Source: a virus. Taken from it: a stretch of DNA of 43,579 bases. Position 1 is the first letter of the stretch. Every line of letters starts with the position of its first letter. Of this stretch, positions 1-43,579 are shown one piece after another. The translations under genes were made by a program, and so were the position numbers. A model generated the notes under the pieces. That model was not told the DNA's origin, searched no databases, and saw only the letters and a program-made list of their open reading frames with translations. Location: the IMG/VR virus record IMGVR_UViG_3300033141_001665, positions 1 to 43,579 of that record; one strand, written 5' to 3'.

Positions 1-114
1 TATGGCTATGGTTATGGCGATGGCAGTAGCGATGGCTGTGGCTATGGCTATGGTAATGGTGATGGCTATGGCTATGGTTATGGCGATGGCGGTAGCGATG
101 GCTGTGGCTATGGC
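1..114. repeat. Terminal direct repeat, left copy
   Basis: These 114 bases are identical to 43466-43579. Because they lie in low-complexity GGCTAT-type repeats, they are either the assembly overlap of a circular contig or a real repeat copy. The reading frame is kept with or without merging. Confidence 0.85.
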
Positions 115-468
115 TATGGCTATGGTAATGGTGATGATATATGGTCAGAGGCATATCTTTCTCGGTTTAAGGATCAATGCCCGAAGGATGCAATTCTTGC
201 GTTCTGGCGCTCTCGTGCTGACGGACGTCCAGCCAATGGTGGAAAGGGGCCGCCTAGATATGCTGGGATGGTTGAGGCAGTAGGCGGCCCATTGAAGATT
301 TGTACAAGCCATGCGTTGCACGGAACGTTCTCCCCTTGGAGTTGGAAGGGCGAGAAAATATGGGTGGTTGCGTTGTTTGAGCCCGTCGTTCGGAGAGAAG
401 ATAAACTGGCATCTTTGAAGCGCAAGATTATTGCTGATGTAACGGATGAGTTCAGGTGGTGTTTGTGA
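1..468 (+). CDS. C-terminal part of the Gly/Tyr-repeat phage protein that wraps around the contig ends
   Basis: The frame is open from base 1 and stops with TGA at 466-468. It continues in frame from the GTG start at 43223. Residues 1-44 are a Gly-Tyr-Asp repeat. The rest is a compact domain beginning at DDIWSEAYLSRF, with the motifs GPLKICTSHALHGTF, SWKGEKIWVVALFEPV and DDKLA-like REDKLASLKRKIIADV. That domain looks like one I know from many phage hypothetical proteins (possibly the family catalogued as DUF7666, not checked). Its function is unknown. With the 114-base terminal overlap merged, the whole protein is 236 aa; without merging it is 274 aa. Confidence 0.8.
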   Translation, partial: YGYGYGDGSSDGCGYGYGNGDGYGYGYGDGGSDGCGYGYGYGNGDDIWSEAYLSRFKDQCPKDAILAFWRSRADGRPANGGKGPPRYAGMVEAVGGPLKICTSHALHGTFSPWSWKGEKIWVVALFEPVVRREDKLASLKRKIIADVTDEFRWCL

Positions 469-9769: not shown

Positions 9770-9812
9770 ATCAGGCGGGTACTAGATATTGTGTGCCGTG
9801 GTGAGTGGAAGC

Positions 9813-11705
9813 ATGAGGGAACGGTGCCCGTATTACAAGTATGTGCCGCGCAGCGTGCGGGCGAACTTGATGTTTCGCCGCAGGCTCATTTCACGTGCGT
9901 TCGAGGATCGGGCGTTCGCCAGGGAGCTATGGGTTGCGTGCAGTCGTGACCTGCTGTTCTTCGTCAACACGTTCTGCTGGCTGTACGAGCCGCGGACGAC
10001 ACGCCGGTTGCCGTTCATCACGTTCGAGTACCAGAACGAGACGTTCCTGGAGTTGGATGACGCGATCCAGAACGGGTACGACGTTTGCTGCTTGAAGAGC
10101 CGTGATGTTGGCGCGTCGTGGATGTGTGTCACGATTTTCTTCTGGCACTGGCTGTTCCATGACATGTATCGGTTCGGCGGCATGTCGGAGAAGGAGGAAC
10201 TTGTCGATCGTAGCGGCGATCCGAAGAGCATGTTCTGGAAGTTCGACTTCTTGATGGAGAACTTGCCGTGCTGGATGCGTTTGCCGGACGGCAAGTATGA
10301 ACGCACGGCACGGCACGCACGGAACTTGGATAACGGTTCTACGTTCGACGGCCAGACGACGACAACGACTTCCGGTACGGGCGATCGCTGCACGGCGATG
10401 ATACTCGACGAGTTCTCGAAGATGGGGGTCGGCAGCAAGGGCGATGCAGGCTTCTCGATACTCCGATCGACACGCGACGTGACGCCGTGCCGGATCTTCA
10501 ATTTCACGCCGAACGGGCACGGCAACGCGGCGTATCGCGTCGCAATGAACTCGCGTATCAGGCAGATACGACTTCATTGGTCACGACATCCGTATCGTAG
10601 TGCCGGGCTCTACACGTCGAAGAACGGGAAACTCATATTGCTTGACCGCGCGTTCCGCGGCAAGGTCAAAGTGCTCAAGGACGGCCGTGCGGAATACGTT
10701 TCGTTCCCGGACGAATATACGTTCATACTCGATGGCAAGATTCGCAGCCCGTACTACGACTTCGAATGTGCGCGGGAAGATAACCCGATCAACATCGCGC
10801 AAGAGCTTGACATGGACTTCCACGGCTCGTCGTCGTCGTTCTTCGGCGAAGTGTTCATTGATGAGCTCATGTCGGAAGTCGCCGTCATGCCGTATTCGGT
10901 CGGCCGACTGGAGATCGACTACGGCGCTTGCGAGGTAACCGGATTCCAGAAGGACCCGAACGGGAACTTCTATTTATGGTGCACGCTCGACGGTGCCGGC
11001 AAGCCGCCGGACGATAGGCACTATGTCGTCGGCTGCGACATTTCGATGGGCACCGGCGCATCGAACAGCGCGCTTGCAGTATTCGATTGCTTATCGAACG
11101 AGAAGGTGGCCGAGTACGTCGATGCGTACATCCAACCGCACGACTTCGCCAAGTTCGCCGTTGCCGTGTGCCGCTGGTTCCAAGGCAAGAGCAACGAAGG
11201 CGCATTGCTGATTTGGGAGCAGACCGGTGCCGGCCGATCGTTCGGCGAGGCGGTGCGTGATGCAGGATATGGCAATATCTGGCACAAGCGCAACGCGGAT
11301 GGGTCGTGGACTAAGATACCAGGCTGGTATCCGAGCCGCGAAAGCAAGATCCAATTGTTGACGAGCTATCGGTACGCCATGCGGCAGAGGCTGTACCTCG
11401 AACGTAGTATCCCATGCTTGGAAGAATGCCGTGCGTACATCTTCATGCCGGGCGGCGGTGTCGATCATGTGGCATCGCAAACGCAGAATGCGCTCGACCC
11501 GTCCGGCGCGAGGACGAACCACGGCGACCGCGTGATTGCTAGTGCATTGACGTGGCTCGGTGCTAAGCACTACGTCGAACAGGCGGTCGAAACCAAACCG
11601 AAGATCCCGGCCAATTGCTTCGAGTCGCGCAGGCGGGACTATGTCGAGCGTATGAGACGCGACAGGCGGTGGTCGAATAGCAGACGGGAGATATTCGCAG
11701 CGTGA
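9813..11705 (+). CDS. terL: Terminase large subunit, 630 aa
   Basis: DNA-packaging motor ATPase and nuclease. The ATPase has a degenerate Walker A, LKSRDVGASW (about 94-103, the K-x-R-x-x-G-x-S-W form seen in many phage terminases), and Walker B MILDEF with Asp199/Glu200. The RNase H-like nuclease shows VVGCDISMG (Asp409), LLIWEQTG (Glu468) and NHGDRVIA (Asp572). ATG 9813 is chosen although its SD is weak (TGGAAG); GTG 9798/9801 or TTG 9789 are alternatives. Its end overlaps the portal start (GTGA). It is encoded upstream of the portal gene. Confidence 0.95.
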   Translation: MRERCPYYKYVPRSVRANLMFRRRLISRAFEDRAFARELWVACSRDLLFFVNTFCWLYEPRTTRRLPFITFEYQNETFLELDDAIQNGYDVCCLKSRDVGASWMCVTIFFWHWLFHDMYRFGGMSEKEELVDRSGDPKSMFWKFDFLMENLPCWMRLPDGKYERTARHARNLDNGSTFDGQTTTTTSGTGDRCTAMILDEFSKMGVGSKGDAGFSILRSTRDVTPCRIFNFTPNGHGNAAYRVAMNSRIRQIRLHWSRHPYRSAGLYTSKNGKLILLDRAFRGKVKVLKDGRAEYVSFPDEYTFILDGKIRSPYYDFECAREDNPINIAQELDMDFHGSSSSFFGEVFIDELMSEVAVMPYSVGRLEIDYGACEVTGFQKDPNGNFYLWCTLDGAGKPPDDRHYVVGCDISMGTGASNSALAVFDCLSNEKVAEYVDAYIQPHDFAKFAVAVCRWFQGKSNEGALLIWEQTGAGRSFGEAVRDAGYGNIWHKRNADGSWTKIPGWYPSRESKIQLLTSYRYAMRQRLYLERSIPCLEECRAYIFMPGGGVDHVASQTQNALDPSGARTNHGDRVIASALTWLGAKHYVEQAVETKPKIPANCFESRRRDYVERMRRDRRWSNSRREIFAA

Positions 11706-13408
11706 ACCCGGACAACGAACAACACGTGCAGAAATTGCGTTCGGCCGTCAAGCATAGCTACGGTAAGCTCCGACCGCTGCGCAAGCATGCCGAACGTATC
11801 ATACGCGCGTACGTCGGCGACAAGTACGGCGAAGGCCAGACGCAGCCGGTGCCGGTCAACTTCATCGAATTGACGTTGAACGTATTCTTGCAGAACCTCG
11901 CGCCGAAACCGCCGCGCGCGTTGGTGACAACGACGAACGATTCATTGAAGCCGACGGCGTCCGCGTTGGAACTCGTGCTCGAAAAGGTGACGAAGGATAT
12001 CGACCTGGCGGAAGCTGAGCGGCGGACGGTTATCAATGCACTTATTGCAATCGGCGTGATGAAGGTCGGCATGGATATGAATGGCGAGCTCTATGCCGAA
12101 CCGGTAGATATTGATGATTGGGTGATTGACATCAATGCAAGGCATTTCAGCGATGCCGCGTTCATGGGCCACAGACTGCGGATACCGTATGAAGAAGCGC
12201 TCGAACTATACGGCGATGAGGTCGGCAGGCTGAAGGATCATGCATTGACGTATGACGACCTGGTCGAAAGCGATGACCGGCTCAGCAAGATTTCGCGCGG
12301 CTCGGATTTCAAGGTCGAGGACTATCCGGACGCGTATATCGAGTTGTGGGAGATCTATAGGCCGCGTGAGAATGTTATACTCACGCTATCGCCGTTGAAC
12401 CATAGCAAGCTTCTTGCGGTCAATGAATGGGACGGTATTGAGCCGGGCCCGTACCATATTCTTGATTTTGCAATCGTTCCGGGCCAAGCGATGCCGTTGC
12501 CGCCGTCCATGTCGTGGTACGAATTGCACGACATGATGAACATGATTATGCGCAAGCTGGCGGACGACGTTGAAACGCAGAAGACGGTGTACTTGACGCG
12601 CCCGGGCGCGGTGTCCGATACGGAACGGATGCGTGACGCATTGCATGGCGACATCCTGGTCGTCGATGATCCGTCGGCAATGGAAGCGAAGCGGATTGGT
12701 GCACTCGATCAAGGCTCATTTCTGCTGATGTTGCAGATCAAGAACTTGTACAGTTATATGACGGGCGGCCTTGAAGTGCTCGGCGGGCTCGGTCCGTCCG
12801 CCGATACGTATGGGCAGGAACGAATCATTTCGACTTCTGCCAACCGTCGTATCCAGGATATGCAATCGCGGATGCTGCGGTTCCGTGAATCGGTAATGCG
12901 GTCGCTTGCGTTCTATGAGTTCAGTGCACCGAGCGGGCGGGAAATTATCAAGCGTGTCGCCGGTATCGACGTAAATCTCAAGTGGACGGAAGAAGAGCGA
13001 CGCGGAGCGTTTGAGGACTATGTTATCGACATCGCACCGTACTCGGCGACGAATCTCACGCCGTCGCAGCGATTGAACATGCTGTTGCAGATGTTGACGC
13101 AAGTGCTTATCCCGATGGGCCACAAGGTGGACCAGGGCAAGCTCGTTTCGCTGATCGCGCGGTATGCGGATATGCCTGAATTGAGTGAGTTGTTAGTGAA
13201 CGATACGCAGTTACAGCCGGAAAGCCCGGAGCCTATGCCTATTCAGGGTCAGGCGCCACAGGCTGCCGGCCCGATGTTGTTCGGCGGTCAACAGTCGCCG
13301 AGGGTGTACGTGCAGGCCAGAGCGCCGTCGGCTGCGAACTCAATTGAGAATAGGCTGATCGGAAAGCTCATTGATGGGATGGACGTGGGTAATAATGGAC
13401 GTACTTAA
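11702..13408 (+). CDS. Portal protein, 568 aa
   Basis: GTG at 11702 overlaps the terL stop, so translation is probably coupled. Size and place between terL and the scaffold/capsid fit a portal. Internal features agree: an N-terminal helical region, a beta-rich wing (YIELWEIYRPRENVIL), a long helix with MSWYELHDMMNMIMRKLADD, and a DMQSRMLRFRESVM helix. The C-terminus is Pro/Gln-rich and low-complexity, as in many podovirus portals. The ring is expected at one capsid vertex, docking the terminase and then the ejection proteins. Confidence 0.88.
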   Translation: MNPDNEQHVQKLRSAVKHSYGKLRPLRKHAERIIRAYVGDKYGEGQTQPVPVNFIELTLNVFLQNLAPKPPRALVTTTNDSLKPTASALELVLEKVTKDIDLAEAERRTVINALIAIGVMKVGMDMNGELYAEPVDIDDWVIDINARHFSDAAFMGHRLRIPYEEALELYGDEVGRLKDHALTYDDLVESDDRLSKISRGSDFKVEDYPDAYIELWEIYRPRENVILTLSPLNHSKLLAVNEWDGIEPGPYHILDFAIVPGQAMPLPPSMSWYELHDMMNMIMRKLADDVETQKTVYLTRPGAVSDTERMRDALHGDILVVDDPSAMEAKRIGALDQGSFLLMLQIKNLYSYMTGGLEVLGGLGPSADTYGQERIISTSANRRIQDMQSRMLRFRESVMRSLAFYEFSAPSGREIIKRVAGIDVNLKWTEEERRGAFEDYVIDIAPYSATNLTPSQRLNMLLQMLTQVLIPMGHKVDQGKLVSLIARYADMPELSELLVNDTQLQPESPEPMPIQGQAPQAAGPMLFGGQQSPRVYVQARAPSAANSIENRLIGKLIDGMDVGNNGRT

Positions 13409-37569: not shown

Positions 37570-39291
37570 ATGAACCTAGTTGCCAAGACAACTGAGTTCA
37601 CGCTGCGGCCCTACCAGCAGGCAGGGCTCGAAGCGCTGTTCAAGGCGTTCCAGACGCACACAAGCGCTTTAGTCGTCTGGCCGACCGGCACTGGCAAGAC
37701 GGTGATGTTCACCGAGGCGGCCAAGCACGTCAAAGGCCGTGTCATGGTCATCGTTCACCGCCAGGAGTTGCTTCACCAGGCCGTCAGGACGATCTATACA
37801 TCGACGGGCGAGTTCGTTGGGATTGAAAAGGCGGAGATGATGGTCGATGAGACGGTCGTCCACAAGCCTCGAATCGTGGTCGCCAGCGTCCAGACGCTTA
37901 ACAGCAAGCGGTGGGGCGCCAGGCGGCTTGAGCGGTTCGATCCAAACGAGTTCGATCTTCTGATCTTCGATGAGGCTCATCATGTACGGGCCCGGACATG
38001 GGAGCGTGTCACGGAGTGGTTCAAGCGGAACCCAAGGCTCCGCATTGCCGGAGTGACCGCGACGCCTGACAGGTACGACATGCGGTCGCTTGGCAAGATC
38101 TTCGAGACGGTGGCCCACCAGTACGAGATCGCCGATGCCGTCAATGACGGCTGGCTGGTGCGGCCTGTCATCGACATCCTATACGCCGACTACATCGACC
38201 TGAGCGTGGTCGGGGTCAACAGACGGGATTTCGTCGAGTCCCAGTTGGCGGCCGAGATGGAAAAGGAGCGCGTCGTGGCTGGCATGGCGAACGAGATCGT
38301 CAAGCAGTTGCCGGACAAGCGAACGCTGATCTTCACTGCTAGCAAGCAGCAGGCGGCCCGTATGGCCCTGGTGCTCAACAGCCTGAAGCCGGGGTCGGCT
38401 GACTACCTCACGGACGACACGCCGGACAACAAGCGTCGGCTGATCCTGGAGCAGTTCGCCAACCGCGAGATCATGTACTTGGCGAACGTGGCGATCTGCA
38501 CGGAGGGCTTCGACGATCCCGGCATCGAGGCGATCGTCATGGGCCGGCCGACGATGAGCCGGGCTATGTACGCTCAGATGATGGGCCGCGGGCTGCGGCC
38601 GCTGCCCGGCCTAGTTGACGGGGTGCTGGACGCCGAGGCCCGCCGGCAGGTGATTTCGGCCAGTAGCAAGCCGAACGTGCTGGTTCTCGATTTTGCCGGC
38701 AATTCGGGCAAACACAAGCTTGTAACGGCATTTGACGTGTTGGCTGGGTCAGAGGACCGGGCGGTTGCCGATCGCGCCTCAGAGGCTGCGAAACGCAGCG
38801 GAAAGCCTATTGACGTGATCGAAGGATTGGAAAAAGAGAAGGCTGCGGAGCTTGAGCGGAAGCGGAAGGAAGCCGAGCGGCGGCTGCGGATCAGGGTTGA
38901 GGCCCGGTATCGGCGTCGGCGGGTTAACCCGTTTGACGTGCTGGACATTGAGGACACCGGCGACTGGAAGGCGGCAAACGGCCCGATACCGGACTGGTTG
39001 GCGTCTTGGCTCGAATCGCGTGGCGTGCCGACTGACGGCATGTCGTACCGCGAGGCGATGATGCTGAAGCAGGAGATGCTCAAGCGGCACGAGATGGGCC
39101 TGGCGACGTACAAGCAAGTGAACGTGCTCAAACGGTTGGGTCTGAAGAACGCATCGCTTCTGACGAAGGGGCAGGCCGGATACTTGATCTCGAAAGCCAA
39201 GGCAGGCGGCTGGCGTCTGCCAGGGTATTTGCTAGACAAATGGTCTAGAGTAGGACGGGTAGATGAGCGATCTGCTGCAAAAGTTTGTTAG
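37570..39291 (+). CDS. SF2 DEAH-box helicase, 573 aa
   Basis: ATG at 37570 lies 2 nt after the previous stop. All hallmark motifs are visible: Q-like LRPYQQAG, Walker A PTGTGKT (38-44), Ia IVHRQELL, DEAH (134-137), TATP (163-166), TEGFDDPGIE and arginine-finger motif VI QMMGRGLRP (336-344). The C-terminus (about 480-573) holds a helical, basic extension (ATYKQVNVLKRLG, TKGQAGYLISKAK) of the type found in phage helicases. Probably unwinds or translocates on DNA during phage replication or recombination. Confidence 0.95.
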   Translation: MNLVAKTTEFTLRPYQQAGLEALFKAFQTHTSALVVWPTGTGKTVMFTEAAKHVKGRVMVIVHRQELLHQAVRTIYTSTGEFVGIEKAEMMVDETVVHKPRIVVASVQTLNSKRWGARRLERFDPNEFDLLIFDEAHHVRARTWERVTEWFKRNPRLRIAGVTATPDRYDMRSLGKIFETVAHQYEIADAVNDGWLVRPVIDILYADYIDLSVVGVNRRDFVESQLAAEMEKERVVAGMANEIVKQLPDKRTLIFTASKQQAARMALVLNSLKPGSADYLTDDTPDNKRRLILEQFANREIMYLANVAICTEGFDDPGIEAIVMGRPTMSRAMYAQMMGRGLRPLPGLVDGVLDAEARRQVISASSKPNVLVLDFAGNSGKHKLVTAFDVLAGSEDRAVADRASEAAKRSGKPIDVIEGLEKEKAAELERKRKEAERRLRIRVEARYRRRRVNPFDVLDIEDTGDWKAANGPIPDWLASWLESRGVPTDGMSYREAMMLKQEMLKRHEMGLATYKQVNVLKRLGLKNASLLTKGQAGYLISKAKAGGWRLPGYLLDKWSRVGRVDERSAAKVC

Positions 39292-42944: not shown

Positions 42945-43235
42945 ATGGCAACGAAAAAAGAAATTCCGTTGGTTGTCACGACAGCTCATCGTGGCGTGTT
43001 TTTCGGGTACGGTATCCCATCTGATGCGGATACTATCAAGCTGAAGCGCGCCCGCATGGCTGTTTATTGGCCTGCTGAGACTCATGGTGTAGTCGGTCTT
43101 GCTTCTGATGGCCCGCCCAAAGATGCGCGAATCTCGCCTGCAGCGCCCGAGATTATTCTGCGCGATGTGACTAGCGTCATGGCGGTATCGCCCAAGGCTG
43201 TTAAAAGATGGGAGGCGGAGCCGTGGGCGAAGTGA
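42945..43235 (+). CDS. Conserved small phage protein of the 'VVTTAHRGVFFG' type, 96 aa
   Basis: ATG at 42945 follows GAGGAGG. The protein (LVVTTAHRGVFFGYG, KLKRARMAVYW, PPKDARISPAAPEI) matches a motif set I know from many phage small proteins, possibly the family catalogued as DUF6948 (not checked). It is often encoded next to Gly-rich repeat proteins, as here. Function unknown. Its last codons overlap the start of the repeat gene. Confidence 0.8.
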   Translation: MATKKEIPLVVTTAHRGVFFGYGIPSDADTIKLKRARMAVYWPAETHGVVGLASDGPPKDARISPAAPEIILRDVTSVMAVSPKAVKRWEAEPWAK

Positions 43236-43579
43236 TTGATGGCTATGGTGAAGGTTGTGGTTGTGGCTATGGCTATGGCGATGGCTATGGCTGTGACAGT
43301 GGCGATGGTTATGGCTATGGTTATGGCTATGGTTATGGCTATGGCTATGGCGATGGCGATGGCTATGGCTGTGACAGTGGCGATGGTTATGGCTATGGTT
43401 ATGGCTATGGTTATGGCGATGGCAGTAGCGATGGCTGTGGCTATGGCTATGGTAATGGTGATGGCTATGGCTATGGTTATGGCGATGGCAGTAGCGATGG
43501 CTGTGGCTATGGCTATGGTAATGGTGATGGCTATGGCTATGGTTATGGCGATGGCGGTAGCGATGGCTGTGGCTATGGC
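43223..43579 (+). CDS. N-terminal part of the Gly/Tyr-repeat phage protein (continues at base 1)
   Basis: GTG at 43223 lies 7 nt after GGAGG (43211-43215) and is preferred to ATG 43208, which has no SD. The sequence is almost entirely Gly with Tyr, Asp, Cys, Ser and Asn. It has a 22-aa (66-nt) unit with DGSSDGCGYGYGNGDGYGYG and an earlier type (YGCDSGDG). It reads in frame into base 1 and so to the C-terminal domain at about 45-155. The repeat could be an elongated, possibly metal-binding or phase-separating segment. All of that is inference. Confidence 0.8.
   Translation, partial: MGEVIDGYGEGCGCGYGYGDGYGCDSGDGYGYGYGYGYGYGYGDGDGYGCDSGDGYGYGYGYGYGDGSSDGCGYGYGNGDGYGYGYGDGSSDGCGYGYGNGDGYGYGYGDGGSDGCGYG
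43238..43579 (+). repeat. Tandem GGCTAT/GGTTAT repeat tract
   Basis: A hexamer-like GGCTAT/GGTTAT/GGCGAT pattern organised in 66-nt units, continued at 1-132 after the circular join. Copy number may vary by slippage and is easily misassembled from short reads. Confidence 0.85.
43466..43579. repeat. Terminal direct repeat, right copy
   Basis: Identical to 1-114 (see left copy). Likely the circularisation overlap of the assembly; merging the copies keeps the Gly/Tyr gene in frame. Confidence 0.85.

Follow-up and report, generated by a model that had tools for sequence, protein, structure and literature searches.

A linked phage gene pair of DUF6948 and a Gly-X array with conserved composition and variable end domains

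An unbroken Gly-X repeat gene spans the contig ends

At the two ends of a 43,579-nucleotide viral contig (IMG/VR record IMGVR_UViG_3300033141_001665, positions 1 to 43,579; hereafter the window), Gly alternates with a small set of other residues in a long repeat, which raises the question of whether this is a genuine gene and, if so, which of its features are maintained across phages and what they suggest about its role. A preliminary description had proposed an in-frame repeat of 22-aa units without a hydrophobic core, ending in a structured domain and preceded by a DUF6948-type gene. The locus is organised as follows:

42945..43235, + strand: DUF6948 gene, encoding the 96-aa constant partner (PF22253, E 1.3e-21)
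43210..43215, + strand: GGGAGG, a good ribosome-binding site for the repeat gene, with a 7-nt spacer to GTG 43223 (from the sequence)
43223-43579 and 1-468, + strand: (Gly-X)n repeat gene, open frame unbroken across the contig ends
43223..43579, + strand: GTG start, short leader and opening stretch of the (Gly-X)n array
43466..43579, + strand: end overlap within the array, 114 bp identical to 1-114, possibly counted twice
1..135, + strand: remainder of the (Gly-X)n array, X being Tyr, Asp, Cys, Asn or Ser
136..468, + strand: C-terminal domain of predicted DUF7666 fold, DIWSEAYL...FRWCL, stop at 466-468 (48-member alignment, AF2, BFVD Foldseek)

The (Gly-X)n repeat gene is genuine: its frame runs on across the contig ends, the repeat is also in frame in relatives, and the absence of a hydrophobic core was borne out. 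The GTG start at 43223 overlaps the DUF6948 stop (43235), and the alternative start, an in-frame ATG at 43208, is weaker. TRF identified a 66-bp (22-aa) period, built on a 6-bp unit, with 4.1 copies (92%) at 43311-43579 and 2.0 copies (93%) at 1-131; the proposed 22-aa register holds in the distal array only, and proximal units deviate from it. Because both contig ends sit in the array and share 114 bp, array copy number is uncertain from this assembly, the protein measuring 274 aa if the ends are concatenated and 236 aa if the overlap is trimmed; as the overlap equals 38 codons, the frame is unaffected. In a relative, IMGVR_UViG_3300034164_000003 (49,654 bp), the contig likewise ends inside the repeat gene and its ends overlap by 127 bp; DUF6948 lies at the right end and precedes the repeat gene, which is intact across the join and thereby supports the end-to-end join of the window.

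The contigs of many further relatives break within the array, and since arrays break short-read assemblies the module is probably under-counted. End overlaps of circular-looking contigs (1-114/43466-43579 in the window, and another in contig G001) fall at or in the array, and such overlaps, together with contig stops in arrays, imply that terminal-repeat completeness calls may be assembly effects. Elsewhere, the window carries DNA helicase, terminase and portal genes (37570-39291 and 9789-13408), and the named relatives of its large terminase are all distant (<60% identity, with coverage above 80% in no record).

DUF6948 and the array form a two-gene unit

DUF6948 and the (Gly-X)n array form a two-gene unit whose close linkage holds in widely differing phages. 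The window's DUF6948 is a true PF22253 member (76.9 bits against a gathering cut-off of 27 bits, model positions 4-85 of 85), and its association with the repeat, which the preliminary description had noted for other phages, proved recurrent. Counted as loci rather than independent lineages, and in three sets that overlap, DUF6948 lay upstream in 36/36 loci chosen by the C-terminal domain with enough upstream DNA; an array of at least 8 Gly-X steps lay no more than 700 nt away on the DUF6948 strand in 148 of the 160 loci chosen by DUF6948 (two scans, partly identical contigs); and among at least 80 loci chosen by array DNA, an iterative HMM search placed a DUF6948-like gene upstream in 55 of the 63 with room. 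Arrays elsewhere at the DUF6948-chosen loci numbered 3 in 1.14 million strand-bases. Most exceptions among these 160 loci end too soon, and two (L156, L229) hold degenerate Gly/Tyr-rich genes at the expected place; by eye, 5 of the remaining 8 array-DNA loci (L241, L253, L271, L265, L276) show a similar-looking, more divergent small gene. Another gene separates DUF6948 from the array at 2 of the 36 C-terminal-domain loci; in the one cluster member read, its product is of HNH type.

The same arrangement extends to named phages, with a Gly-rich array adjoining DUF6948-like genes in all 13 GenBank phage records inspected and at both DUF6948 matches in bacterial genomes. The pair is found in Rheinheimera phage Barba28A (gp018/gp017; 115 Rheinheimera records matched), Rhodobacter phage RcapNL (AFA44887/AFA44886, the latter an array of 75 aa), Eggerthella phage PMBT5 (gp37/gp38), Chlorobiaceae phage CV-1-33, Pectobacterium phages Abuela and Sabo, Dickeya phage Setonix, Vibrio phage IKEMa6-1 and Iodobacter phage PhiPLPE; Pectobacterium phage Abuela and Chlorobiaceae phage CV-1-33 also carry PF22253 members. 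The closest queries matched no cultured-phage pair, whereas divergent DUF6948 queries did. Gene order is reversed in Podoviridae sp. ctRVW222. A PF22253 survey of two phyla yielded matches in 2 of ~780 genomes, none of them in one of the phyla, which does not prove absence there. RcapNL is already known as a source of AcrIC9 (PMC7391736).

Several loci depart from the simple two-gene layout. At L058, L068, L119, L241 and L217, extra genes separate DUF6948 from the array gene or follow DUF6948 immediately; where read, they encode HNH-type endonucleases. Paralogous array genes occur in tandem at L275:10828-11641 and L276:11873-12651, and in L276 a small gene is sandwiched between two array genes.

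End domains are swapped or missing

A folded C-terminal domain, DUF7666-like in the window, follows the array there and in most close relatives. Scanning IMG/VR with the motif ALH[AG]T..P..W.G returned 63 stretches, and nearly all true members of the domain family bear an N-terminal (Gly-X)n array; the same pattern retrieved just 2 MAG contigs from genome contigs. The AF2 model built from a 48-member alignment is compact (pLDDT 93.7, pTM 0.87), as expected from the structured domain first described. In BFVD, Foldseek matched this model to phage and giant-virus proteins with the DUF7666 fold (prob 1.00, TM 0.57-0.63, E 5e-3), several of which are likewise joined to a repeat region, made of ankyrin or pentapeptide repeats in place of (Gly-X)n. 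HMM searches gave weak matches of PF24703 (DUF7666) to 6 of the 48 members, all below the curated cut-off (best E 0.0051), and for the window's own domain no Pfam match above cut-off and no PHROG or NCBIfam match. The domain is thus predicted to have a DUF7666-like fold without membership by the curated Pfam cut-off, and its initial assignment to a widespread phage type stands at the level of fold but not of curated family. Comparison with PDB structures revealed nothing similar (best E 1.4; PARP15 at rank 9, probability 0.08), a PDB sequence search returned no match, and PADLOC HMMs for anti-phage defence matched neither this domain nor DUF6948 with any family up to E 1.

Across the wider set, the array is the constant part, and the end domains are swapped or missing. 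A second, unrelated C-terminal domain follows the array at L088, L134 and L144, and a third at L257 and L364; L084 and L112 have an N-terminal instead of a C-terminal domain, and L101 carries DUF7666 at the array N-terminus (PF24703 E 6.8e-6, 26.9 bits against a cut-off of 27). Some arrays behind DUF6948 have no end domain at all, and the pairs in GenBank phages mostly have no C-terminal domain. The C-terminal domain, initially taken as a defining part, is therefore ruled out as the core of the system, as it is replaced, moved to the other end or lost while DUF6948 and the array persist. These distributions also bear on the idea that the array is a mere flexible spacer for an end domain. The folded domain in the window and most close relatives fits this idea, which is nonetheless decidedly improbable given the domain-less arrays of RcapNL, Rheinheimera, Pectobacterium and other phages and the constancy of both the Tyr/Ser/Asp mix and the DUF6948 partner.

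Two loci show other arrangements of the DUF7666-like domain. At L069:307-4158, three tandem genes encode it followed by pentapeptide repeats in place of the Gly-X array, an exception to its near-constant association with the repeat. On a contig represented by both L025 and L138, the C-terminal domain is out of frame with the array (Leu-Arg read-through), owing to a frameshift or a sequencing error.

Array composition is conserved while order, length and codons vary

Among arrays, the Tyr/Ser/Asp composition and the alternation with Gly are conserved, whereas order, length, codons and end domain vary. The X position is Tyr, Ser or Asp at fractions of.39,.31 and.24 in 267 distinct arrays, and nearly the same Tyr/Ser/Asp mix recurs in four codon backgrounds (.39/.30/.25,.35/.35/.24,.40/.31/.24 and.38/.32/.22; backgrounds GGC-NNC, 172 arrays; GGC-NNT, 40; GGG-NNC, 34; GGT-NNC, 17). 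In these 267 arrays, neighbouring X codons differ at the first two bases in 70% of cases and at the third base in 3.7%, and neighbouring Gly codons differ in 2.6%. Silent sites are homogenised, and variety at the amino-acid level is retained. We infer that frequent out-of-register recombination homogenises the silent sites and that selection holds the composition.

These codon patterns also speak to a DNA-level origin, in which the repeat would be a slippage product, a hypermutation target or a binding site and its translation accidental. The hexamer units, the homogeneous codons and the 56 of 152 long arrays with internal repeats longer than in shuffles are all features that such an origin could produce. 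We regard it as very unlikely, because four codon backgrounds give one amino-acid mix, because the frame, the start site and the fusion to the C-terminal domain are preserved, and because silent changes are rare in the 17 GGT arrays, contrary to an untargeted A/T mutator. In the latter arrays, T-to-G changes are rare at the Gly third base (purity 0.97) and common at X, where they convert Tyr to Asp; untargeted A/T hypermutation is accordingly ruled out as the source of the Tyr/Ser/Asp mix.

The order of X residues is near random, with a significant period at lags 1-15 in only 9 of the 152 long arrays. The 56 arrays with longer internal repeats indicate that block duplication occurs, as in the window, but simple tandem duplication is insufficient as the full source of order. 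Identical neighbours are slightly avoided (DD 0.78, SS 0.90 and YY 0.92 of expectation). This avoidance, along with the strict alternation of Gly that most arrays keep up for as many as 160 residues, would fit an ordered beta structure of silk-like strands. Gly would then line one face and Tyr/Ser/Asp the opposite one, and the product would be a fibre or rod, not a fluid condensate. We consider such a structure unlikely: X order is near random in most arrays, Asp at 24% of X without Lys/Arg disfavours stacked sheets, and alternation is broken in the relaxed arrays L156 and L229, which have lost strict alternation and are still Gly/Tyr-rich.

Charge and cysteine content were tallied in 133 arrays. 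Lys plus Arg is zero in 128 and Cys in 119; Asp is present in nearly every array, and two lack any Asp/Glu. Metal binding through the regular Cys and Asp had been suggested, and the window units do carry one Cys per 22 aa. The rarity of Cys, the two arrays without Asp/Glu and the lack of RTX GGxGxDxUx units in the arrays read make this role extremely improbable, Asp being one of three interchangeable letters rather than a universal ligand.

Many arrays are preceded by a short leader such as ILRGExP (L062, L043, L058). An xG..P motif occurs in 92 of 139 leaders and is possibly a binding motif.

The partner is predicted to adopt an Sm-like fold

The AF2 model of DUF6948 (pLDDT 91) resembles a small beta-barrel of the Sm/LSm type: Sm/LSm chains make up nearly all of the PDB matches listed by Foldseek (TMt about 0.5-0.7 and E values 2e-3 to 2e-2, at prob 1.00). 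The model differs from these chains by an inserted helix and by having its last helix at the C-terminus. The likeness lies in the predicted fold only, as a profile search of PDB sequences with DUF6948 matched no Sm protein and Pfam SM-ATX reached E 0.034, below significance, against one relative; by eye, DUF6948 has a partial Sm1-like spacing and lacks the Sm1 Asn.

Such a partner could point to an array that acts as a nucleic-acid mimic, or as a ligand that would fill the Sm-like ring of DUF6948 or occupy another nucleic-acid-binding protein, with Tyr standing in for stacked bases and Asp for phosphate. The near-obligate neighbour with its predicted Sm fold would suit this proposal, as would an acidic array free of Lys/Arg. 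It is quite unlikely, given that the Sm fold is a prediction, that two arrays have no Asp/Glu and that Gly alternation is left unexplained.

A composition-driven chain as a tentative model

The reading we favour, at a probability of about 0.42, is that of a composition-driven, self-associating low-complexity chain working with a small beta-barrel partner, DUF6948, and with optional client domains. The array would be an acidic chain of the 'sticker and spacer' kind, without fixed structure, and self-association of its tyrosines would produce a condensate or gel inside infected cells. DUF6948 may bind the chain and/or nucleic acid and so position or limit the array, and an end domain, where there is one, as with the DUF7666-like domain of the window, would recruit a client to the assembly. 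The arrays have the properties of sticker-and-spacer sequences, in that composition is kept, order is not, and the stickers are aromatic; the Gly/Tyr-driven condensation raised in the preliminary description is the leading guess. Against this reading, tight linkage might equally reflect shared timing, the Sm likeness of DUF6948 comes from a predicted fold (best E 2e-3), strict alternation exceeds the regularity that a composition-only model requires, and a very short array of about 6 Gly-X steps (L364) is short for a condensate scaffold.

A more specific version appears rather unlikely, namely a phage mini ribonucleoprotein-granule in which an Sm-like RNA-binding protein and the Gly/Tyr/Ser/Asp chain co-condense and plug-in end domains pick the client. 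Were it true, the hosts of such phages would range from Proteobacteria to Chlorobi and Actinobacteria.

Known low-complexity proteins offer parallels to the array. FUS/TAF15-type domains are rich in Gly, Tyr and Ser; Gly/Ser separate their Tyr residues, a hydrophobic core is lacking, and composition prevails over order. The phage array is alike in character without homology, and differs in its strict Gly alternation, absence of Gln/Arg, acidity, phage encoding and separate partner gene. The Gly-Ala repeat of EBNA1 and silk are likewise low-complexity viral or fibrous sequences of alternating Gly-X; they are unrelated to the phage array, in which X is Tyr/Ser/Asp instead of Ala.

An apparently undescribed module

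As anatomy, leaving mechanism aside, the DUF6948-array pair is apparently an undescribed module. DUF6948 and single arrays are already in databases, the Pfam entry for PF22253 stating no function, and we found in the open-access literature no description of the pair and no paper on DUF6948, DUF7666 or the repeat strings, or naming the array partner of DUF6948. With ~95% Gly/Tyr/Ser/Asp, a random-like order and a composition that stays fixed in phages infecting unrelated hosts, the array is an unusually clean natural example of selection on protein composition, and its near-fixed, predicted Sm-like partner provides a first handle on its role. The presence of the pair in cultured RcapNL, a prophage of Rhodobacter capsulatus SB1003, makes the possible use of low-complexity condensates by phages a directly testable question.

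Public records label the proteins of this module hypothetical, 'lamprin' or 'adsorption protein'. The latter two names are given by GenBank to array proteins at L356:2731-3045 and L361:1788-2114, and are probably composition-driven misannotations.
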